From a virus, in the IMG/VR virus record IMGVR_UViG_3300033571_008202, positions 1 to 23,631 of that record: a stretch of DNA of 23,631 nucleotides; one strand, 5' to 3'. The translations under genes and the position numbers were made by a program. This document shows positions 8,301-19,472 of the stretch, piece after piece; position 1 is the stretch's first letter, and the number at the start of each line of letters is the position of its first letter. A model generated the notes under the pieces. It was not told the DNA's origin. It worked only from the letters and a program-made list of their open reading frames with translations, and did not search any database.

Positions 8301-11300
8301 TTGATTTCAGAGATAATCTGAGGAGGCGTAGCCTCTTCTTTAGCCCATCTGGAATGGAACTCGGCAACCTGAGTCTTGTTTTCAGGATTGTTAAGCCACG
8401 CCAGTTCGGTAGCGTCAAACTTGTCGTTGCTCAGTCCTCTGATAAGAGCACCAGATGTAGATGTTTCGGAGTCTGCGGACTCTCTACCCCATCTAAGAAT
8501 GTCATCAAGACCAAGGTCACCCTTTGTCTTGCCTCTGTGCCACTGGTCTGAGGCTTCTTTTATGCCATCGTTAAACTCAGAGATAAGTTCTTCAGGGAAC
8601 TTGAAATCGTCAGGCAGAGGAGAGTCAAGAACGCCAGCCTTGTCGGGAAGGTATCTTCCTTCCTGCTTCTGAAGAGGCTCTGTCTTGGTCTTGTCTTCTC
8701 CAAAGCCTGTAACACCATCAGGAGTTCCAGCCTTAAGTTCTTTCCACTTAAGGTCTGTGTATCCAGACATACCTTCGTCCGTGCTCTTTTTCAGGTAGTA
8801 ACCAGTGTCAACATTTCTGTAACCTCTGGCTTGCATATACCTGTCAACGAGGAATTCGATTTTGTCTAAAATTTTTTCAGACGCTTCATCTCTTCCGTAG
8901 AGGTTGTCTTGCAGTTGCTGATACTGTCTTTCCCTGAACTCCCATTCAGCAAGACGCTTTCTGAATTCAACTCTAAGGTTAGAAGCCCACTCTGCCGTAG
9001 GAGCACGCTTGGCCTGTTCGGGAAGCATATTCTGTGCAAGTTCTGCTTGGTCGGCAAAATCAACTCTTGCTTCAAGAGCCTCCACCATTTCAGGTGTAAA
9101 GCCTTCAGACTTTTCCAGCAGTCCATACTTACGCATCTGCTCGGCTACAGCAAGGTACTGCAACTCCGCTTGCTTGGAAGCCCTGCTAAAATTGTCGAGC
9201 CTATCACGAAGAAGGCTTCGCATCTTGACGCTGTCAACGGACTGCTTCTTTCCAGTTCCTCTTTCCTTGTTTGCCCTGTTATAGGCAAGCATCTCATTGG
9301 TGATAAACTTCTTGTTTACCGACTCAAGTTGATGAAGTTCTTGTAGCAGTTCTCTAATCTGCGGGATAGCACCACGCTTGTCCTTCTCTGAAAGGACAGT
9401 TTGAATCTTCTTAGCGTGTTCGTCCTTGAGTGCTTGCAGTTTCTTGTCAAAAGAGGCGTAGGACTTTTGTAAAAATTTTTCAAAAGCCTTGCCTCTCATT
9501 CCGCTAATCTTGAGTTCTCCAAGTGCCTCTTCTCTGTGCTGAAGAGAATGGAAGTTAGAGTCGATAACTTCTACATCATAGTTGTCATCAACCCTAAACG
9601 AGAATCCGTAGTCGTAGTAGGCATCCTTCTGAAGGTCTACGATTTTCTGTCTGATGTTCACCTTTTCATCGGTGGTCATAGGTCTGGTGGTTTCTGGAGT
9701 CTTGCCCTTAGCAGGGACAACAACCACACCGCTCTTAATCTGACCCTTGAGGTACTGAATTTCCTGTTCTACTGTTCTGCCAGAGCGTAGTGTCTTCTGG
9801 TCAATGACAGGATAGGCCAAGAACACATCTCCGTTTCTGAACAGTTCCCATCTTGTGGCAATTTCAGTATCGGTAATGGCTTCAAGACCTTCGTCAGCAA
9901 GAATAGCAATCTCGGTATCCCTAACTGTCTGCGTGACCTCAAACAAATCTTTGACACTTCTTCCGCTGGCCTTGACAGCCTTGAGAAGCACGAACTCCTT
10001 GACAGCACCTTCAACAGTCTGGAACTTGCCGTTAGCAATAGACATCTCGGGAGACAGTTTGTTAACCAACGATGTCGCTCTTCTAAGGAACTCTGTCTTG
10101 ATGGACTTAATCTGTTCTGGTGTCTGACCAATTGTTTTCTGGTCGTACACAACTCTGTCAATCGTGTTGCCTTCTCCGTCAACAAGTTCAAACACAGCAT
10201 TGTTTTTTGCTTCGTTGATGGCTTCGGCCTTGTTACGAGAGTGTCCATCTTCAACCAAGGCATCGGAAAGTTTTCTTCTAATAAGGTAGAAGTTAGTTCC
10301 TTCAAACCTAAGAGCGTGTTGTGCCGTAAATTTTCTTCCACCCAGTTGGATGATTCCCTTGGTTCTGCTGGTATCAACCTCAGACCAATAGACACCACGG
10401 AAACCTTTACGCTCTAGGTCATCAAGAGCCTTAACAAAATTCTCCTTAATAGTCTTTCTGACATCAATGTAACGCTTGTTCTGGCTTCCGTCATAGACGG
10501 CATAGAGTTCCACAGACCTAGCGATGGCTTCTGGGCTTCCAATAGCATAGAATCCCTGCGAAGCCTCATCGTAAATCTTGGCTCTGACCTGCTCAAGGAT
10601 ATCGACATCCAGTCCCTTGATGCTGTAAGCCGCCATAATGTCCATAATTCTGTCGATGTTGTCCTGACTGATGATGGCTTCTGCCTTCCTTTCGTGTTCT
10701 ATAAGGACAGCCATTGCTTCTGCGGCCTCGGTAGGGATGTCTCTTCCAGCCTCGATGAATGTGTCAAACGCTTCCTTGATTTTCTTAAGACTAGCGTTCG
10801 GGCCAAGTTTCATCTGCTGGGCAACAAATTGTCTAGTTCTGTAAATGAACTGTTCCTTGAGTTTGTTCTTGGCAAAAGAAGACAGGGTGAATTTTTCTCC
10901 AAGTTTCGGGCCACCCATTGTCTCGTCCATAAGGAAGAACAGTTCACGCTGTCTCTGGGCAAGGTTATCCATCAGTCCAGTAATGCCGTTGTTGTCGGCA
11001 AGAACCTTCTTGATGATACCCAACTGAGAAGTCGTTCTAGTCTCAGAGTTCTTGAGGAACTCTTTTCTTTTTTCCTTGGGGATGTTGTAAAGCGTCTGGG
11101 CTGTAGAACTAAGTTTGCTAAACTTTTCGTCTTCTTGAGCACGAAGTTTATCCATTCTAGCCTGATTCTTTTTAATGACTTCGTTATAACCCTTGAATTC
11201 CTGTCTAAGGATTGCTTCTGCTTCTTCTCCTGTGATAAGTTCTTTTGACAGTTGTCTTCTTCTGGCATCAACCTGAACAGAAACTTCACCTTCCGCTCTA

Positions 11301-14300
11301 ATCTGAGCGGCACTTCTTCTGTTCTTGTTTGTCTTTCTAAAGTCAGCAAGCCAAGCCTCATACTGATTTACTTCTTTGAGAGCGGCAACATTGGCTTCTC
11401 TCTGCTTCTTCTCTTGATTGGCAATTTCACTGACAACTTTAGGCCAGTTCTTGAGTGTTTCAAACTCTGCCTGTGACATCTCCATCCAGTGACCAAGAGA
11501 AGGAATGCCAGTTTCCATCAGAGCCTCAGGAGTAATACCCATCTTAAGGGCTGTCTCGATAAACGCACTGTTAGACCTGACTTCTCTTCTTGGGATTACA
11601 ACGGAAGAACTTTCAGCACCAAAAGGCTTGATAAGTTTTCTCTGAACCTTGGGTAGCATCTCAACATAGGAAACAAAACCCTTAAGCGAATACTCGGCAA
11701 TCTGTCTTAGGACATCCTTGTCAGCCCTAGGGAATTTACGCTTAAGTTCATTAATTACATACGGAACAAGGGTCTGCTCATAAGCCTTTCTGGAGTTTTC
11801 GTCCAGAAGACCACCGCTCTTGATGGCCTTTTCGGCATCAGCAACCAGCATATTGTTAAGTTTGACAATGTCATCTAGGGTTTTGCTTGTGATTCTAGAT
11901 GTGTTAGGGACAGGTTCTCCGTATTCATCAATCCTGTACTTAAGAAGACCAGCCAGAGAGCCATCGCCACCAGTTTTTGCAATCTGCTTTCTAAGACTTT
12001 CTTCGACAGACTTGGCAGGAGAGAACTGATACTGTTCAAGTCCGTGTCTGTTTCTATTTTCAACGAACTTGTCTGGAGCAAAGATGGCAACAGCAGAGAA
12101 GTTGCTACCGCTGTTTGGGTTCACAGCCCTATACTCTACGGAGTCGATGCCGTATTTTTCAAAAACTTTTCTAGACTGAGGGGTAAACAGCCAAGACTCA
12201 ATCGTATCGATGTGAGCATTAAGAATGTTATCTTCAGACTTAAAGATGCTGTACAAATTGTTGCCGTCAATGTCATCAAGTCTAAGGATTTCTTTTACGA
12301 CTTCCGTAGCGTTAGCACCTGTCAGTTCGTTGATACGCTTTCCAATTTCAACGACCATAGACTTATAAGAACCTGCGTTTCCGATATCAGAAATGTCTAG
12401 GTGCTTTTGGGTGTTGATGTATCCAGTACGAAGTTTTCCTGTTGTAGTATAGCCAGCCTCGTGAGCATCAGCGGTAAAGTGCAACCACCCGCTAGGAGAA
12501 CTGTACATATGACCACGAACAGCACCCTTCTTCTGCATAGCATCGACAAGGTCTTCTGCTACGATGTCGTAAATCTTGTTGGCGTTTTCGTTAACAACAA
12601 TTTCAGACAAGGGTGTGCGGAGCGAGTAGACAGAAATCACTTCTCCTTCTTTGTTTCTATACCTTGTGTCCGCTAGGGCAGACCTAGCATAACTGGGCAT
12701 CGGGTGTCCTTCGTGGTCTCTATGCGTGATGGCAGGAGAGAAGTTAGCCTGACCACGCTTATAGGCTTCATCGTGGTTATATCTGAAACCTTCTCCGTCC
12801 TCGACAACCATTCTTCCAATAAGGTCTACTTTAAAATTAGTTACAACAGTAGGCAGTGTACGCTTTTCGCCCTTCTGTCTAAATTGCATTGTCCTCGGCT
12901 CATTATACCAACCTCTGTTGGCATTCTCCATCGCTCTTGTAGGATGGAATCCGATGACAGCGTTTACAATATCACGCTTAAGGGCGGCATCACGCTCGCC
13001 TCCCTTGCCTCCAGAAAACAATTTGATGCCAGCCTGTGCCTTGTTTCCAAGGCTGTAGTTGGCAAGCAAAGCCTTCACGGCTTCTCTTAGTTCGGCTCTA
13101 GTACCAAACAGTCTTCGGACTGTCTTGTAGTTAAGGTCTTCGTCATCGACCTTGTTAAAAGCGTAGTCTTCACGAGTAAGGATAGCATCCCAGTCCATAA
13201 CCATAGCCATAAGGTTGGCTTCACCGACCTCGTAGGTTACTTCACCACTCTTCTTGTTTACATTCTTCTTGGTTCTTTCAAAGTACAAGTTTAGTTCAAG
13301 AGGAACAAACCTTCTAGCGGACATAAAGTGTCCACGCTTTCTGCTTCCGTTTTCATTTTCCTTGGACTCAGTAATGACAACAGCCTTAACGATATTGCTG
13401 ATGTTCTTAAGTTGGTCAACTTTGGCTCGCTCAATGATTTGATTGAGTTCAACAAGTCTGCGAACAACATTCTCAGGCAGATACTCCTTAAAAATCTTGA
13501 CCTCTTCAGAACTAAGGACACCACTAATCTTGATTCTAGGGTTGCCCTGCCAGACGCTTTCCCAGAACTCGCCACGAGAGATAGCACCCTTGTCCGTAGT
13601 CCATCCTCCTTCTCCTTCTTCTGTAATAGGGAAAGTCTTTTCAGTAGCCTCTTGACCTTTCTTTCTTCCACCAATTTCGCGGATTTCTTCTCTGGTAACA
13701 CCAGCACCCTTCTTTGACTTAGGAAGCGTTCTCCAGAAATCCTGTCTCTGCGGCTTAGGCAACAGTTGACCAACAGTCTTTTTAGGCTTACCTTTCTTTT
13801 CAGGAGGAGCAAACGCTGGCTGGAACGAAGCAAGGGTAACACCCTTGTCGCTGATAAGTTCAAACTTGCCGCTTCTGTTGGGAGGAGCGAGCGTCTGCAA
13901 CTTTTCGACAGCCGCCTGTAGACCCTGAGTGATAGACATAGCAGTACCATCAGGGTTCACTCTTGCTTCAGCCTTGCCCAAGTCTTCAGGAACAATCAGG
14001 TGCTCAAGTTGCTGATTAAACAGAGTAAAGGTATCCTTGTACTTGTTCTTATTGACTTCCCATCCGTCATACATCTTGGCACGGATTTCTTTAACATAGT
14101 GCTTCATCAGACCTTCAAGCATCGGAACTCTGATTCTCTGCTTTGTGTTCTGGTCAATCAGGAAAGCGTCAGGCGTAGCGTCTGTCTTGAACTGGACTCC
14201 AGCCTCGGACAGGTCAACACGCATAATATCTCTGTACAGGTCTTTGCCCCATTCAATGGCGTTACGAATAAGACCAAGGTCACCACCCTTAAGCAGGTAG

Positions 14301-16354
14301 TCGATGGGCTTATCATCAACGAACCTGTTCCAATAGGAGGCTAGGAACTCTTCAAAGAAACCTCTAAATGTCGTAGGTCTTTCTCCAGCCTTAAACCTCT
14401 GGATTGCATCATTAAACTGCCTATAATGTTCCTCCATAATCTGAGGAATGTGACCAGCAGTTTCTTTATCCAAACCAAAGTACTGGTCTCTAAACTGTTC
14501 AAGGATACTGACCGCTCTTTCCTTAGGCATCCTGTACAACGCACCCTGTGCGTCTTCAGTACCGATAAGGTTTTCAACAGTATGCTTAACAAACGCAGTC
14601 TTGTATCTTTTATTGATGGCAAGAGTGTGAAAAAGTTCTTCGCTGACCGCAGACTTAACAGCCCTGTCAGCGTTAATAAGGATTACATTTTCTCCGTTTA
14701 CTTTTGTAAAGGTTACTCCTCCGAACTCAGGGTTGTCTAGCATTTTCTGATAATCAGCAAACTCTTCGGCAGTCTGCATTTCACGAAGTCTTTCTTCCTT
14801 GAGGATAAACATCTTTTCCTCACGATGGATTCTTTCAAAAGCGGCAATCTGTGACATAAGGCTGTATCTGCCTTCTTCACCTTTCTTTTCTACCACTCTT
14901 TCCATCAGGTGGAAAACGCCTTCCTGATTGTACTTGTCGTAATGTTCTGTAGCCCACAGGAAGTTCTTAAGAACAGTTCTATATCTATCACCGCCCTGAA
15001 CAGCGTTAGCAAACACGCCAACCTGATGGAAAGCAGAGCCAAGAACAATACCAGTACCAAAGCCGTGGTACATACCTTCCTCACCACCAAAGGCCAAACC
15101 AAACGCACCGCCATACATACCAGAGTGCAGGGCGGTCTTAGTCGTCTGTCCCATCCACTGTGTAAGAGGGCTTACGCTTTTAGAATAAAAATTAGAAACA
15201 GTAGCAACCTTGCCGCCAGAACTTTGAGCAACACGCTCTGAAAGCGTAAGGCCAGCAGTAGCAGTGCTAGGGTCAAAAGCGTTTTTACCAACAGCCTCTC
15301 CAAGAGCACCGATACCTTCGACTACCTTAGCGACACCCCACACGCCAGTCGTTACAGGCCAAAGAGGAATCTTGGCAATAGCACCCATACCAAGCGAAGA
15401 CTCAGCGTTTCGAGCGATAGCATCGGTAGCCGCAACTCTGCCTGTTCCCTGAATATAGTGGTCATAACTCGTGGCATCCTTGAACACCTGAGCAATGCTG
15501 TCATTGATTGTCTGGACAGCGTTTGCAACGCCACCAGCGTGGTCTGCAAGTTTTCCAAAGCCTGTAGCCGCTTTCTTGGAAGCATAGACGCTGGCCTTTG
15601 TAAGTTGCTCTCCAAGCCTGACAGCCGAAGTAGCACCCCTCAGGCTCTTTGCAATAGCCGCTTCAATGCCAAGGTTAGGTACAGCCCAAGAAGGGTCAGC
15701 CACATAAGAGATACCCTGAACAACAGCAGGGTTTGTAAGGTCAATCTCAGTATCACCAATCTTAATCTTGGGAGGAAGAAGGATGCCTTCAGTTCTATCC
15801 TTTTCAATCAACTTGTTCAGTTCGATTGTCTTCTTAAGGTTTTCATAGTAGTCCTCGTCACTAGCGTGGTTGCCGTAAAGCATCTTGCTCAAGAACGAAT
15901 GCTCATCGTACTTGGCTTGCTCGTACATATAGAACCAGTTCTTAGTTCCAAGAGCCGCACCTTCGACAGGAGAGGCAAGAACCTTTGGCAGTTTCAGCGT
16001 AAGAGCATCACCGACAAAACCAGTAGTAGCATCAATCAGGTCTGATGTTGTTTGCGAAATAGCATCTCCAGCGGACTGAATAAACGAAGCCTCCTTCTTC
16101 GCCATAAACTTTCTGTAAGCAATGGCTTCTTTGAATGTAGGGACATATCCGTGAGTCTGATACCTCTGCATCAGGTTTGCCACCTGCTCTCCAAGGATGT
16201 CCTCGGGCAGGTCTTCAAACTTAAGCCTACCAGTGGTAGGACTATTAATAGGAACAGAAGGGTCTTCTAGTGCCTGATTCTGAGGAACGATTAGCCCTTG
16301 TTCTCGTGCGGCTTTTTGAAGTTCTTCATAGTTAGAGTATACAATTTCAGACAT
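5387..16354 (-). CDS. Giant polyvalent ejection protein (T7 gp16 position), 3655 residues
   Basis: One uninterrupted frame of 10,968 bp. It follows gp13-, gp14- and gp15-like genes, so by position it is the gp16-type internal virion protein, but nearly three times larger than T7 gp16. Visible parts: Gly/Ala-rich hydrophobic segments at about 321-358 and 408-451, possibly membrane-inserting during DNA ejection; a zincin-like region at 555-673 (EELFH 572-576, EEFLA 668-672); an ART-like region at 1280-1447; charged coiled-coil stretches near 1640-1750, 2288-2348 and 2798-2851; and small beta-rich modules near 2018, 3352 and 3582-3655. I found no SLT lysozyme motif and no convincing RNA polymerase motifs. 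The start overlaps the previous stop (TAATG). Delivery into the host with the DNA is inferred. Confidence 0.85.
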   Translation of the reverse strand: MSEIVYSNYEELQKAAREQGLIVPQNQALEDPSVPINSPTTGRLKFEDLPEDILGEQVANLMQRYQTHGYVPTFKEAIAYRKFMAKKEASFIQSAGDAISQTTSDLIDATTGFVGDALTLKLPKVLASPVEGAALGTKNWFYMYEQAKYDEHSFLSKMLYGNHASDEDYYENLKKTIELNKLIEKDRTEGILLPPKIKIGDTEIDLTNPAVVQGISYVADPSWAVPNLGIEAAIAKSLRGATSAVRLGEQLTKASVYASKKAATGFGKLADHAGGVANAVQTINDSIAQVFKDATSYDHYIQGTGRVAATDAIARNAESSLGMGAIAKIPLWPVTTGVWGVAKVVEGIGALGEAVGKNAFDPSTATAGLTLSERVAQSSGGKVATVSNFYSKSVSPLTQWMGQTTKTALHSGMYGGAFGLAFGGEEGMYHGFGTGIVLGSAFHQVGVFANAVQGGDRYRTVLKNFLWATEHYDKYNQEGVFHLMERVVEKKGEEGRYSLMSQIAAFERIHREEKMFILKEERLREMQTAEEFADYQKMLDNPEFGGVTFTKVNGENVILINADRAVKSAVSEELFHTLAINKRYKTAFVKHTVENLIGTEDAQGALYRMPKERAVSILEQFRDQYFGLDKETAGHIPQIMEEHYRQFNDAIQRFKAGERPTTFRGFFEEFLASYWNRFVDDKPIDYLLKGGDLGLIRNAIEWGKDLYRDIMRVDLSEAGVQFKTDATPDAFLIDQNTKQRIRVPMLEGLMKHYVKEIRAKMYDGWEVNKNKYKDTFTLFNQQLEHLIVPEDLGKAEARVNPDGTAMSITQGLQAAVEKLQTLAPPNRSGKFELISDKGVTLASFQPAFAPPEKKGKPKKTVGQLLPKPQRQDFWRTLPKSKKGAGVTREEIREIGGRKKGQEATEKTFPITEEGEGGWTTDKGAISRGEFWESVWQGNPRIKISGVLSSEEVKIFKEYLPENVVRRLVELNQIIERAKVDQLKNISNIVKAVVITESKENENGSRKRGHFMSARRFVPLELNLYFERTKKNVNKKSGEVTYEVGEANLMAMVMDWDAILTREDYAFNKVDDEDLNYKTVRRLFGTRAELREAVKALLANYSLGNKAQAGIKLFSGGKGGERDAALKRDIVNAVIGFHPTRAMENANRGWYNEPRTMQFRQKGEKRTLPTVVTNFKVDLIGRMVVEDGEGFRYNHDEAYKRGQANFSPAITHRDHEGHPMPSYARSALADTRYRNKEGEVISVYSLRTPLSEIVVNENANKIYDIVAEDLVDAMQKKGAVRGHMYSSPSGWLHFTADAHEAGYTTTGKLRTGYINTQKHLDISDIGNAGSYKSMVVEIGKRINELTGANATEVVKEILRLDDIDGNNLYSIFKSEDNILNAHIDTIESWLFTPQSRKVFEKYGIDSVEYRAVNPNSGSNFSAVAIFAPDKFVENRNRHGLEQYQFSPAKSVEESLRKQIAKTGGDGSLAGLLKYRIDEYGEPVPNTSRITSKTLDDIVKLNNMLVADAEKAIKSGGLLDENSRKAYEQTLVPYVINELKRKFPRADKDVLRQIAEYSLKGFVSYVEMLPKVQRKLIKPFGAESSSVVIPRREVRSNSAFIETALKMGITPEALMETGIPSLGHWMEMSQAEFETLKNWPKVVSEIANQEKKQREANVAALKEVNQYEAWLADFRKTNKNRRSAAQIRAEGEVSVQVDARRRQLSKELITGEEAEAILRQEFKGYNEVIKKNQARMDKLRAQEDEKFSKLSSTAQTLYNIPKEKRKEFLKNSETRTTSQLGIIKKVLADNNGITGLMDNLAQRQRELFFLMDETMGGPKLGEKFTLSSFAKNKLKEQFIYRTRQFVAQQMKLGPNASLKKIKEAFDTFIEAGRDIPTEAAEAMAVLIEHERKAEAIISQDNIDRIMDIMAAYSIKGLDVDILEQVRAKIYDEASQGFYAIGSPEAIARSVELYAVYDGSQNKRYIDVRKTIKENFVKALDDLERKGFRGVYWSEVDTSRTKGIIQLGGRKFTAQHALRFEGTNFYLIRRKLSDALVEDGHSRNKAEAINEAKNNAVFELVDGEGNTIDRVVYDQKTIGQTPEQIKSIKTEFLRRATSLVNKLSPEMSIANGKFQTVEGAVKEFVLLKAVKASGRSVKDLFEVTQTVRDTEIAILADEGLEAITDTEIATRWELFRNGDVFLAYPVIDQKTLRSGRTVEQEIQYLKGQIKSGVVVVPAKGKTPETTRPMTTDEKVNIRQKIVDLQKDAYYDYGFSFRVDDNYDVEVIDSNFHSLQHREEALGELKISGMRGKAFEKFLQKSYASFDKKLQALKDEHAKKIQTVLSEKDKRGAIPQIRELLQELHQLESVNKKFITNEMLAYNRANKERGTGKKQSVDSVKMRSLLRDRLDNFSRASKQAELQYLAVAEQMRKYGLLEKSEGFTPEMVEALEARVDFADQAELAQNMLPEQAKRAPTAEWASNLRVEFRKRLAEWEFRERQYQQLQDNLYGRDEASEKILDKIEFLVDRYMQARGYRNVDTGYYLKKSTDEGMSGYTDLKWKELKAGTPDGVTGFGEDKTKTEPLQKQEGRYLPDKAGVLDSPLPDDFKFPEELISEFNDGIKEASDQWHRGKTKGDLGLDDILRWGRESADSETSTSGALIRGLSNDKFDATELAWLNNPENKTQVAEFHSRWAKEEATPPQIISEIKDAVLASTVGRDGIQLRDTVNALNETIRKIGVVSDRLRIRHGVEIALTPKEMENPYAARARARVTAETDPIHTYRQGMPDDVGKLYDEIDSLRKQKVSLEARYNAILKKASGKYANPEFRKMVQKMKGEDVRQRIARKNTASRRAEEKILQKQLAASEKELFKMYDDIAKNMRFQNPELVFENSRIEVHPRDPRTQYLFYSFGALSWDFFGSNWQVDLTLTTAGKERPLGVSAERADLSPTESPLVRQVNKNERANRRRIFLADYIHYAVNKRRFHERNPSEPMSAMDANLFGVLFKRDIQNGLFKEKISNIPAEQMQMQEAMNQGIVETFSSPDEKSRFIRSFVVDALDLISTDKSLREKAFMNLKGINYEQFKKLRAENPKYVEQALDTLEVVEKAMYLIKDGNVSVGELGEKLNVRDSVNLKFTIEENLLIRRAEAANGLAAGTVRRILNGQVTGIELPQQVKRMIGKKKQPFLTRSKIGFVPVDTLIRMDGFDSIWKEHMADEGYNTALFALDGMWNVKKAYEQMPPQERMALQTSRINRLLLENRAGQMQAAKEAKERYRKRDKAILAPDSMQTWAYGKEDSIAKDEFARVDEILKTAMSVEATIQRYKGDAVTFVNKRPFALDHLLSLNDNLRIDGAKRNKDRTLSVDWDNPDKPQWRDTIDGRYFIKRMVNPKGKESFKVYFKGQTFKTAEGVLVGDIGITSFATVENLTQAQVAIRFFEDDIKRVTLSSRLIKGGVKKFEPLAVGEKTMPVQNVDKLFTVWDEVPAFSEEILDLYMKNKGTPFFREQMAEKLAGIGQYGETVYIRDFKDGKWGNKRIFITPREEGVYSQYFEKTTSPDGHTMYIRKKDSIQTAPEPVNLGSDQSTSQAQATETAATPKPDKVEQTVSDSSNWDVIEMDKSDSGDFPEWSIIKNKLGYTLMRLKNPATQRSVFRLFNPASAFMAETHHEIDAMEEILKKELGKL
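12014..12517 (-). other. ADP-ribosyltransferase-like region within the giant protein
   Basis: Residues 1280-1447. The order of motifs matches ART domains of polyvalent proteins: RGHMYSS (1280-1286), then WLHFTADAHEAGY (like FFTxDxxxA..Y), then TGYINTQKHLDISD (like YLNIKNPLDI), then KYGIDSVEYRA with E1407 (like GYDGI), then SAVAIFAPDKFV and a closing QFSPA. This is family-pattern recognition by eye. If correct, it would transfer ADP-ribose from NAD to a host target early in infection. Catalytic residues cannot be fixed without an alignment. Confidence 0.5.
14336..14700 (-). other. Zincin-like metallopeptidase region within the giant protein
   Basis: Residues about 555-673. After a beta-like stretch (ENVILINADRAVK) comes the helix SEELFHTLA. 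E573 and H576 occupy the Glu and second His of an HExxH motif, but the first His position (572) is Glu. About 92 residues later FFEEFLASYW (E668-E669) fits the third, acidic zinc ligand helix of gluzincin-like peptidases found in phage and conjugative-element polyvalent proteins. The His-to-Glu change means it may be inactive, may bind another metal, or may be only a scaffold. Confidence 0.4.
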
Positions 16355-18594
16355 TATTTTTTCTTAGATTCTTGAGAAGGAAGTTTAACGCCAGTAAGTT
16401 CAGCAATTCTTTCGGCCTGTGCCTGTCTTTGTTCAGGAGTAAGCCTTTGGTCTACGCCACCAACTGGCGGTACAACTGTGAAGCCTTTTGATTCCGCTTC
16501 AATCATAATACCATCAACAATTAAAGACCTAGCAATCTGTAGGATTTCCTTTGATGTCTCACGATTTCTCCAACCAGAGAACGAAGGTTCTGCCATAAGG
16601 TCAGCAAGACGCTCGGCATCTTTTTCAGTTTCTGTTCCTGGGGCTATGAAATACTTACGGAATGTTTCAAGGCCACGCTGGTTAGCCGTGTACTCCTTGT
16701 TCCACTTGCCACCAGTCCAAGCACCAATGACAACATCGTAGAAGTCACCAGTACCCCACAGTTCAGTCATCTTATCAACGAATGTATCTGCCTTGTTGAG
16801 GTCTTTCTTAAGTGTCGTAATAGTCTGTTCTGTCTGACCAAAGTCTGTAGCCCTAGCATCATTGATAGGATTGTTCGGGTCTCGTGTAAGGAAGAAGATG
16901 CGATAGCCTGTATCTGTCATTTGGCCTCCCTTAACGGAAACATTTCCGTTTGCATCCTTAACAGCAACAGCCGCATAGTCCTTAAGGAATCTGTTATGGA
17001 TTTGCTGTTTAGCCTTCCATTCAGTTTCAGGAAGAGAAGACGGAAGACCCAGTTGAGCAAACTGAGCGGTAGACATAAATTCACCCTTGGGACTGACAAA
17101 ACCTTGAACTCCGTTAATGACCGAAGGCATATACCCGCCATAAAGATTAACAGCCTTGTACACATCTCTGTTGTCGAGAGTAAACGGCTTACCAGCCTTT
17201 GCAAAAGAAGCCTTAACAGATTCAATCTTAGCGTCCCAAATCTGCTGTTCGTCCAACTGATAGGTTTCGGTCTTGATAACCGAGTCTTCGTATGGAGATG
17301 TGTAAAGAATTTTAACCTTATCTACGACAGATGTAGGAGCAACAGCCTTATACTTTTGAGAAAGAGCCGCTTGTACGCTAGGAGTCTTAAACCACTTTAG
17401 AGCAACAGCGTACTGTTCAGCAGGGTTTGTCCTGTTTTGAAGGTCTTTATTCTGACCACCAGTAACTGCGTTGAATTTAAACTCAAAATCAATCTGGTTC
17501 TTAATTGACGGATACAGTCTAGTAACTTCGTCATAAACAGATTGAATAAACTTGTTGTTAAGTGTTGAATTTGTGTCAGCGGCTCTATCAGCAACTTCAA
17601 ACTTAGCGTCACCAGTCATACTTCTGGCAATCTGGGTCGTAACAGGAATTGCTGGGGCTTCTCCAGTAACAACAGGGTCAAGAACTCCGTCACCATCAAC
17701 ATCCTTTAGGCTAAGATTAGGGTCAATTTTCTTCAGTTCTGCTTCAAGGTCAAAAGAGTTAATTACCTGACCATCAATCTCTGCCTGTCCGTAAACTCTA
17801 TTAGTTCTTGATTCGTATTGAAGGGTTTTTGTCGGAGCAACTTGAGCGGCAGTAACAGCATCCATCATCTGAAGTTTTGCTTCAGTCCTACGCTTACCTG
17901 CGATGTCAAGTTCCTGACCTTCAAGTGCAAGTTTGAAAGCCTTAGCCTTATCAGGGCCAACAAGTCTTTCGTAATCAACCTCAAGTTGCAGTTTCTGCTT
18001 TGTAAGCAGTGCAATTTCATCTTGTGTGGCGGCTGTAGCCTTAGCCCTCTGAAGATTAAACAGGGCGGCTTTAAGATTTACTTCTGCCCCTTGTTTTTCT
18101 ACTGCAAACCTCTGTTCAGCAAGAAGATGACCAGCCCTTTGAAGGTCAAGACCAGCCTGTTGAAACTCAACCTGTCTTCTTTCTCTTTCTTCAGCCTTAT
18201 GCTTGGTCTGAATTTCAAGAAACGACTCAAGTTCAAGTCCGCTGACACCAGACATACCAGAAACCCAATCTCCGTTGCCTTCAGACTCAGCCTTCTTATA
18301 CAATTGTCTGATATGAGAAGGTGCGGTCTGTGAAAGAACAGGAGCGTTAGGTCTGTCCTGTTCGTCAGTAAGTTCTTCTGGTGCTTCAAGGAACTGACTG
18401 ATTACATTAGCCGCAAAGATACTGTTCTTCTGACGCTCTTCATTCTTGGCTTGGTACTTCATCAAAGCACCAGCAATGTCTTTTCCGAACCCAGAGATAG
18501 ATTCGTATGTCTGCCTCGCCATCTCTGTGGTGGCGGGTAGAATGTTTGTCTGGGGAACTTGTTCTCCAGTATACTTAGAAAATGGGCTAGCCAT
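16354..18594 (-). CDS. Internal virion (ejection) protein, T7 gp15-like by position and size
   Basis: This 746-residue protein is almost exactly the length of T7 gp15 (747) and sits between the gp14-like and gp16-like genes. Residues about 130-260 are a long charged helical region (AEERERRQVEFQQAG and onward), likely coiled coil. At 298-306 there is a calcium-loop-like DVDGDGVLD. The C-terminal half is mixed alpha/beta with a TGDFYDVVIGAWTGGKWN segment, ending in a basic tail (SQESKKK). In T7, gp15 with gp14 and gp16 forms the channel that carries DNA across the periplasm. I saw no enzymatic motif. The start is 2 nt from the upstream stop. Homology to gp15 is inferred from order and length, not sequence identity. 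Confidence 0.6.
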   Translation of the reverse strand: MASPFSKYTGEQVPQTNILPATTEMARQTYESISGFGKDIAGALMKYQAKNEERQKNSIFAANVISQFLEAPEELTDEQDRPNAPVLSQTAPSHIRQLYKKAESEGNGDWVSGMSGVSGLELESFLEIQTKHKAEERERRQVEFQQAGLDLQRAGHLLAEQRFAVEKQGAEVNLKAALFNLQRAKATAATQDEIALLTKQKLQLEVDYERLVGPDKAKAFKLALEGQELDIAGKRRTEAKLQMMDAVTAAQVAPTKTLQYESRTNRVYGQAEIDGQVINSFDLEAELKKIDPNLSLKDVDGDGVLDPVVTGEAPAIPVTTQIARSMTGDAKFEVADRAADTNSTLNNKFIQSVYDEVTRLYPSIKNQIDFEFKFNAVTGGQNKDLQNRTNPAEQYAVALKWFKTPSVQAALSQKYKAVAPTSVVDKVKILYTSPYEDSVIKTETYQLDEQQIWDAKIESVKASFAKAGKPFTLDNRDVYKAVNLYGGYMPSVINGVQGFVSPKGEFMSTAQFAQLGLPSSLPETEWKAKQQIHNRFLKDYAAVAVKDANGNVSVKGGQMTDTGYRIFFLTRDPNNPINDARATDFGQTEQTITTLKKDLNKADTFVDKMTELWGTGDFYDVVIGAWTGGKWNKEYTANQRGLETFRKYFIAPGTETEKDAERLADLMAEPSFSGWRNRETSKEILQIARSLIVDGIMIEAESKGFTVVPPVGGVDQRLTPEQRQAQAERIAELTGVKLPSQESKKK

Positions 18595-18596
18595 AA

Positions 18597-19472
18597 TTAA
18601 GCGTTATAGAAGTTGTTAATAGGAGCGGTAGACTTTCCAAACATACCGCCAGCACCAAATGAAGCCCCAGCAATACTTCCGACTCCGCTAAGAATTCCGC
18701 TTGTAATAGCAGACTTATTCTGAGCAGTAGCAACATTGGCCTGAAGTTGTCCGTTGTAATTGCTGGCGTAAAGATTAGCCGCATACTGGGATTCAGGCTG
18801 AAGATATGTCGGGCCAAGTCCCTGATTGTACTGTGTAGCCTGACCAGCAAGACCCATAGGAGACAACGCACCAAGTCCAGAAGAAACAAGCGGAGCACCA
18901 TACTGGTTGTAAGCCGCACCAGACATAGTGACATCGTTGCCAAGAACCTGATTAGCAAAAGTTCTAGCCTGAGCCTGACGCTGAAGTCCTAGATTATAAC
19001 CAGCCAGAGTTTCCATACCGATACCCTGAGCACTGTTTGCAATACCTCTAGCAGTTCCACCAGCCCTGCCCATCTGTGCGGCAAGGCGTTCCATTTCAGG
19101 AGTAAGACCCATACCAGCATTAAGGTCTGCAAGAGCCTGTGTTCTCATCAGGTTCTGAAGTTCAGCACCACCGCCAAGACCAAGGTCGTATGTATTTCTG
19201 GAGCGTTCAGCAATCGGAGCAAGAGAGTCGGCAAAAGTACTACCATACTCTTTAAGAAGATTAGCAGAATCGCCCATAACAGAGCGATAGAAAGTCTTCA
19301 GGTTATTAGCCTGACCCATCATCTGCTCGTACTGCAACTGTTGCCACATTGGAACGAGTCGCTTTTCGGCCTCCATCAACTGGGGGGCCATATCAATCTG
19401 AGCACGGATAGAGTCAGACATTTCCTTGTAGTAATCCCTAGGGGGCGGTGCTTGAACTTTTGTAGAACCCAT
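18597..19472 (-). CDS. Internal virion protein, T7 gp14-like by position
   Basis: A 291-residue protein starting MGSTKVQAPPPRDYYKEM, a form common at the N-terminus of podovirus internal-virion proteins. It is rich in Ala, Gly, Gln and Met, with a helical middle (TPEMERLAAQMGRAGG) and a Gly/Ser/Ala hydrophobic segment near the C-terminus (about 255-280, SGILSGVGSIAGASFGAGG) that could insert into a membrane. Position directly before the gp15-like gene and the amphipathic tail fit a gp14-type protein, which in T7 leaves the capsid first and enters the outer membrane. The start overlaps the upstream stop by one base (TAATG). Confidence 0.6.
   Translation of the reverse strand: MGSTKVQAPPPRDYYKEMSDSIRAQIDMAPQLMEAEKRLVPMWQQLQYEQMMGQANNLKTFYRSVMGDSANLLKEYGSTFADSLAPIAERSRNTYDLGLGGGAELQNLMRTQALADLNAGMGLTPEMERLAAQMGRAGGTARGIANSAQGIGMETLAGYNLGLQRQAQARTFANQVLGNDVTMSGAAYNQYGAPLVSSGLGALSPMGLAGQATQYNQGLGPTYLQPESQYAANLYASNYNGQLQANVATAQNKSAITSGILSGVGSIAGASFGAGGMFGKSTAPINNFYNA

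Follow-up and report, generated by a model that had tools for sequence, protein, structure and literature searches.

We have analysed a virus record from IMG/VR that is 23,631 bases long (the window), whose main feature is an uninterrupted minus-strand ORF encoding a giant protein of 3655 residues. Our best explanation for residues 1202-1447 of this protein, which we would put at an even chance, is that they form a module derived from the ADP-ribosyltransferase (ART) superfamily that is non-catalytic and belongs to a giant ejection protein. In terms of layout, the module would be nearest to ART-PolyVal (Tox-ART-HYD2) of polyvalent proteins, and it would lie within a virion ejection protein encoded in the position of T7 gp16. 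The canonical NAD-transfer site would have been lost from the domain, and purifying selection would keep it as a non-catalytic block bracketed by the motif FSPA. The most likely role of this block would be to contact proteins within the ejection machine or to bind a host partner after injection, a binding role at which we arrive by exclusion. The features of the window are collected in Table 1.

Table 1. Features of the giant ORF and its neighbours; residues are those of the giant protein and positions those of the window.
Feature	Residues	Positions	Strand	Remark
291-aa protein, gp14-like		18597..19472	-	by position
746-aa protein, gp15-like		16354..18594	-	by position and size
Giant ORF, 3655 aa		5387..16354	-	gp16-like position
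Zincin-like helix EELFH	572-576	14627..14641	-	first His of HExxH missing
Candidate second zincin helix FEEF	667-670	14345..14356	-	
Third boundary-motif copy FQPA	844-847	13814..13825	-	start of preceding module
ART-like unit, 246 aa	1202-1447	12014..12751	-	alignments A6, A9; FSPA brackets
Left boundary motif FSPA	1205-1208	12731..12742	-	
Strand-1 equivalent EVISVYSLRT	1238-1247	12614..12643	-	ART-PolyVal catalytic His (vYHGT) absent
Strand 2 and following turn, GWLHFTADAHEAGY	1289-1302	12449..12490	-	strand in both models
Strand 3, TGYINTQKHLDIS	1310-1322	12389..12427	-	both models; H1318 invariant
Strands 5-6, GIDSVEYRAVNPNSGSNFSAVAIF	1402-1425	12080..12151	-	both models
Right boundary motif FSPA	1444-1447	12014..12025	-	

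The initial annotation had proposed a canonical, active ART-PolyVal domain at residues 1280-1447 of the ORF (nucleotides 12014-12517, minus strand), based on five motifs. We found all five of them, FTADAHEAGY, YINTQKHLDIS, YGIDSVE, AIFAPDKF and FSP, at this place and in this order. A conserved unit does exist there, but it begins about 78 residues earlier, at residue 1202, and the equivalent of ART strand 1, GEVISVYSLRT (1237-1247), lies outside the proposed interval. The motif F[SQ]P[AS] occurs at residues 844, 1205 and 1444, which are module boundaries (window positions 12014-13825, minus strand). In some members it is also found elsewhere, mainly near residue 845 at another module boundary, and it may serve as a linker or be a site of processing.

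Relatives were found by scans of IMG/VR viral contigs, seven of the eight scans giving relatives. Besides the window, 21 IMG/VR records carry the long form of the unit (L002, L005-L020, L028, L030, L039 and L040), with identities to the window of about 36-75% over 246 residues; loci L003, L004, L021-L023, L025-L027, L029, L031-L038, L041, L046-L047 and L060-L063 belong to records already counted. For the giant protein as a whole, the 17 relatives that were measured showed 30-73% identity over the aligned parts, along the length of the window's protein. In four sister records, L042-L045, the match to the long form is limited to roughly the first 45 residues, and a shorter domain then stands at the same place. 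L064 is a fifth record of this compact form, with an extra insert ahead of the short domain. Homology between the long and compact forms covers the first 47 residues (Prob 84, P 7e-6); beyond these, their presumed equivalence rests on position and motif reading. By tblastn, neither the segment nor either half of the giant protein found a match among 50,697 phage records, L042 likewise found none among phage records, and pattern scans of genome contigs gave no relative. Alignment A9 was made without L010, a fragment, and L017, which is close to L016, and alignment A11 additionally without L015. For residue counts, the 20 rows of A9 were reduced to 12 representatives at below 80% identity. When the long and compact forms were combined (alignment A10), the C-termini were misaligned, and the counts and the folding were made without A10. 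The insert of L064 (at about residues 1335-1374 of the giant protein in that record) showed a weak GNAT match of 14.4 bits, below the cut-off, and recalls the ART-GNAT neighbourhood described for polyvalent proteins in the accessible part of PMC5512222.

The unit follows an ART-PolyVal-like order, with GE..SVY in strand 1, G.LHFT.D..EA in strand 2, GYI.T..HLDIS in strand 3 and GI.SV.Y...VAIF.P..F in strands 5-6, followed by the FSP end. The C-terminal end 'f.p..i....G.F.P' matches ART-PolyVal, and L059, an ART-PolyVal sequence, terminates in QIKSAIGNVGTFDP, with L056 being similar. On the one hand, the motif order put forward initially is collinear with ART-PolyVal; on the other hand, sequence profiles alone do not show that the match goes beyond chance. 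The hhalign comparison of the long-form family with nine ART-PolyVal sequences gave P 0.24, the segment ranking 19th of 58 comparisons along the same protein (57 tiles plus the segment). An HMM search with PF18760, the Pfam model of ART-PolyVal, found none of 18 records at E <= 10; the positive control, the prototype RPP1 vRNAP, scored 41 bits, over the cut-off. The compact form (L042-L045) gave P 0.0015 against the ART-PolyVal set, which became 0.013 when L064 was added. In tile ranking against the ART set, the compact-form tile came first in L042, L043 and L045 and second in L044. The long-form segment headed the ranking in both L039 and L040 and stood second among 83 in the window, at 3.2 bits; in L064 the segment came 12th, and HMM tile ranks were poor in many long-form members (e.g., 52, 54, 55, 58 and 62). 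The second ART set, used in the ranking, did not include L055. We consider that the match of the compact form to ART-PolyVal weakly suggests ART kinship.

The non-significant profile scores from PF18760 and hhalign would also fit a different reading, somewhat unlikely in our view, in which the unit is not an ART and another alpha/beta domain, specific to this phage group, bears a coincidental likeness in its motifs. Matches to LPD22, weak and below the cut-off in 3 of 18 members or records, would fit this reading as well. DarB-type families had been suggested as possible relatives; in family-model scans with Pfam, PHROGs, NCBIfam and PADLOC, no named ART or DarB family was matched and no model names the ART-like domain, and PDB sequence searches gave no match. 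Candidates dropped as below the cut-off were HEPN_RiboL-PSP (E 0.05), GH114 (E 0.092) and LPD22 (14.8 bits), the last of which gives matches in 6 of 14 control genomes too.

For the fold, we used two AF2 models, made from 18 and 19 sequences, with pLDDT of 54 and 56 and pTM of 0.55 and 0.56, in both of which strand 1 is badly predicted. Foldseek gave nothing significant for either model, which together with the low pLDDT is consistent with the unit being some other alpha/beta domain. NatT chains came second and third for model 1 at E of about 0.6, and no ART was among the top 50 matches for model 2. The best BFVD match (E 0.011) is without a name, and the entry 'PolyVal ADP-Ribosyltransferase', 13th at E 0.63, was set aside as no evidence for an ART. 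By VIA-align, whose Z values here all lie within the range that the tool calls common, 6kyf came first for both models (Z 3.5, 4.5 A, 100 residues for model 1; Z 4.0, 4.1 A, 106 residues for model 2); among 998 chains, only 6kyf and ParT (6d0h, Z 2.7) reached a Z of at least 2 for model 2, and two of the seven chains listed for model 1 were NatT entries (Z 2.4). Another four of these seven are not known to be ARTs. DarT and other ART families were not among the structural matches listed, which excludes nothing. 6KYF is AcrIF11, an ART according to the accessible part of PMC12421852, and ParT is a toxin that is ADP-ribosylating like AcrIF11. The low-Z matches to both on these models are suggestive. 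Against a coincidental likeness, partly independent lines converge, namely the collinear motifs, the compact form and AcrIF11 as the first structural match for both models; from these several directions, an ART fold and ancestry of the domain are weakly suggested.

In polyvalent ARTs, the active site is described as H in strand 1, Y in strand 2 and D in strand 5 (accessible part of PMC5512222). None of the 12 representatives has the strand-1 His, position 1244 being S in six, G in three and P, D or T in one each. The strand-2 Tyr is likewise absent from all of them, and a His (H1292) is present in 12 of 12, its equivalence to the ART set being read by eye. At the Asp position of strands 5-6 (D1404 in the window), which is not conserved, D is found in two, H in seven, Q in two and N in one. 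The R-S-E pattern of Alt/VIP2 ARTs was not found either: position 1246 is R in six, N in three and E, D or K in one each, and at position 1418 half of the representatives (6 of 12) have E, the window having N. Three residues had been proposed for the NAD pocket. Eleven of 12 representatives keep R1280, but it precedes strand 2 and is not at the ART strand-1 position; E1407 is not invariant, with E in 11 of 12 and G in the branch of L005, L006 and L010. At H1282 the residue varies between H, S, G, R and others. Since the H-Y-D residues are missing, we infer from the residues that the activity has probably been lost. A canonical active ART-PolyVal domain would agree with the motif order and with the polyvalent-like context of a giant protein, but H-Y-D is absent family-wide and PF18760 found none of the 18 records, and we see next to no probability for it. 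With no H, Y or D position kept and two of the three proposed residues not invariant, the initial view of an injected host-modifying enzyme was not borne out.

R1212, D1213, Y1243, G1289, W1290, H1292, T1294, H1318, S1405, Y1408, N1412, E1432 and N1433 are invariant in 12 of 12 representatives, so that G, W, H and T of the strand-2 region are all kept, and the polar ones could form an active site of another kind. A His in strand 2 is a feature of the H-H-h ARTs. This is a named ART clade in the accessible part of PMC9503650. The domain may be an active ART-superfamily enzyme with a non-canonical site (x-H-x), which would use NAD+ or another nucleotide and modify host molecules on injection, with the invariant R1212/D1213, H1292, H1318 and E1432 as candidate site residues. 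The invariant polar residues, the strand-2 His and the strong purifying selection would agree with such an enzyme, but the strand-1 His/Arg is absent at positions 1244 and 1246, the strand-5 acid is not conserved, position 1418 has E in half of the representatives, and both R1280 and D1296 are absent from L028; we consider this enzyme quite unlikely. We regard as a long shot a new type of ART active site, without the strand-1 His/Arg, in which the invariant strand-2 His together with R1212, D1213, H1318 and E1432 would act on a nucleotide or macromolecule, of the host or of the phage, at cell entry.

Purifying selection on the ART-like domain is strong: four pairs of moderate divergence gave NG86 dN/dS values for the segment of 0.055/0.843, 0.025/0.543, 0.053/0.563 and 0.009/0.313, as low as, or near, those of the flanks. 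Saturated pairs gave 0.170/1.537 (window and L002) and 0.108/2.966 (L005 and L006), and L018 and L019 hardly differ (0.002/0.019). From the low dN/dS of the segment, we conclude that the domain is being kept for a function.

The three adjacent genes encode 291, 746 and 3655 residues in this order, the giant gene being the last and largest, and its start and the stop of the gene before it overlap in TAATG. T7 gp14, gp15 and gp16 have 196, 747 and 1318 residues, respectively (accessible part of PMC8954989). The giant protein resembles a T7 gp16-type ejection protein in that its gene is the third after gp14- and gp15-like genes, which are themselves assigned by position and size only and whose products gave no family match in family-model scans. 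Unlike T7 gp16, it is almost three times longer and shows no sequence match to any family; family-model scans of it found no lysozyme-like N-terminus, as in the T7 gp16 type, and no match to RNA polymerase families. From gene order and sizes, with no sequence match behind it, we infer that the giant protein is an ejection protein, and from the gp14-, gp15- and gp16-like gene positions, that it would be located in the virion and injected.

Among known systems, ART-PolyVal (PF18760, Tox-ART-HYD2), as in the vRNAP of Roseovarius Plymouth podovirus 1, shares with the window domain the order of strand motifs, the embedding in a phage protein of more than 3000 residues and the C-terminal end seen in L059 and L056. 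Unlike ART-PolyVal, the window domain lacks H-Y-D, the helical insert that separates its strands 3 and 5 is larger, the Pfam model is silent, and the giant protein has no RNA polymerase match. AcrIF11, a phage/plasmid ART anti-CRISPR, also has a variable helical region, as described in the accessible part of PMC12421852; unlike the window domain, it stands alone and is an active enzyme, for which H/Y and D/E residues have been shown to be important, and the PDB sequence search found no sequence similarity between the two. The RES-type toxins ParT and NatT (6D0H, 8QNL) share weak fold matches with the domain, but they are toxins with antitoxins, and no such pair was seen in the window. The PMC literature, from which subscription papers are mostly absent, gave no description of an ART-like domain in an ejection protein (accessible parts of PMC5512222, PMC9503650 and PMC11654794). 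As a separate observation, model 1 showed a weak fold match (Z 2.5) to residues 1438-1605 of PDB 9k3a chain B, from the pre-ejectosome of cyanophage A4. If this match is true, an experimentally solved ejection protein may contain the same kind of block.

Residues 572-670 (window positions 14345-14641, minus strand) are, by motif, zincin-like. All 20 rows that have residues at this place show the pattern x-E-x-x-H, in which the first x is E or A (AExxH in L007) and never H; EExxH is the form in place of HExxH, and E573 and H576 are kept. The zincin-like MPTase of polyvalent proteins carries HExxH, whereas this region is without the first His. The ART domains of polyvalent phage proteins are commonly interpreted as weapons that are injected. 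Throughout this phage group, the ART-like domain is strictly kept, and both its catalytic residues and those of the zincin-like region nearby are missing. This suggests that effector domains can become parts of the ejection machine or act through an unrecognised site, and motif order alone is insufficient for annotating such proteins as host-modifying enzymes.

Residues 413-440 (15035-15118, minus strand) form a glycine-rich stretch, MYGGAFGLAFGGEEGMYHGFGTGIVLGS, within the 50-residue block where conservation of the giant protein is highest; this stretch and the hydrophobic one after it are a candidate membrane-insertion element. At residues 1601-1800 (10955-11554, minus strand), 113 of 200 positions are gapped in L002, a variable insert in a protein that is otherwise conserved.
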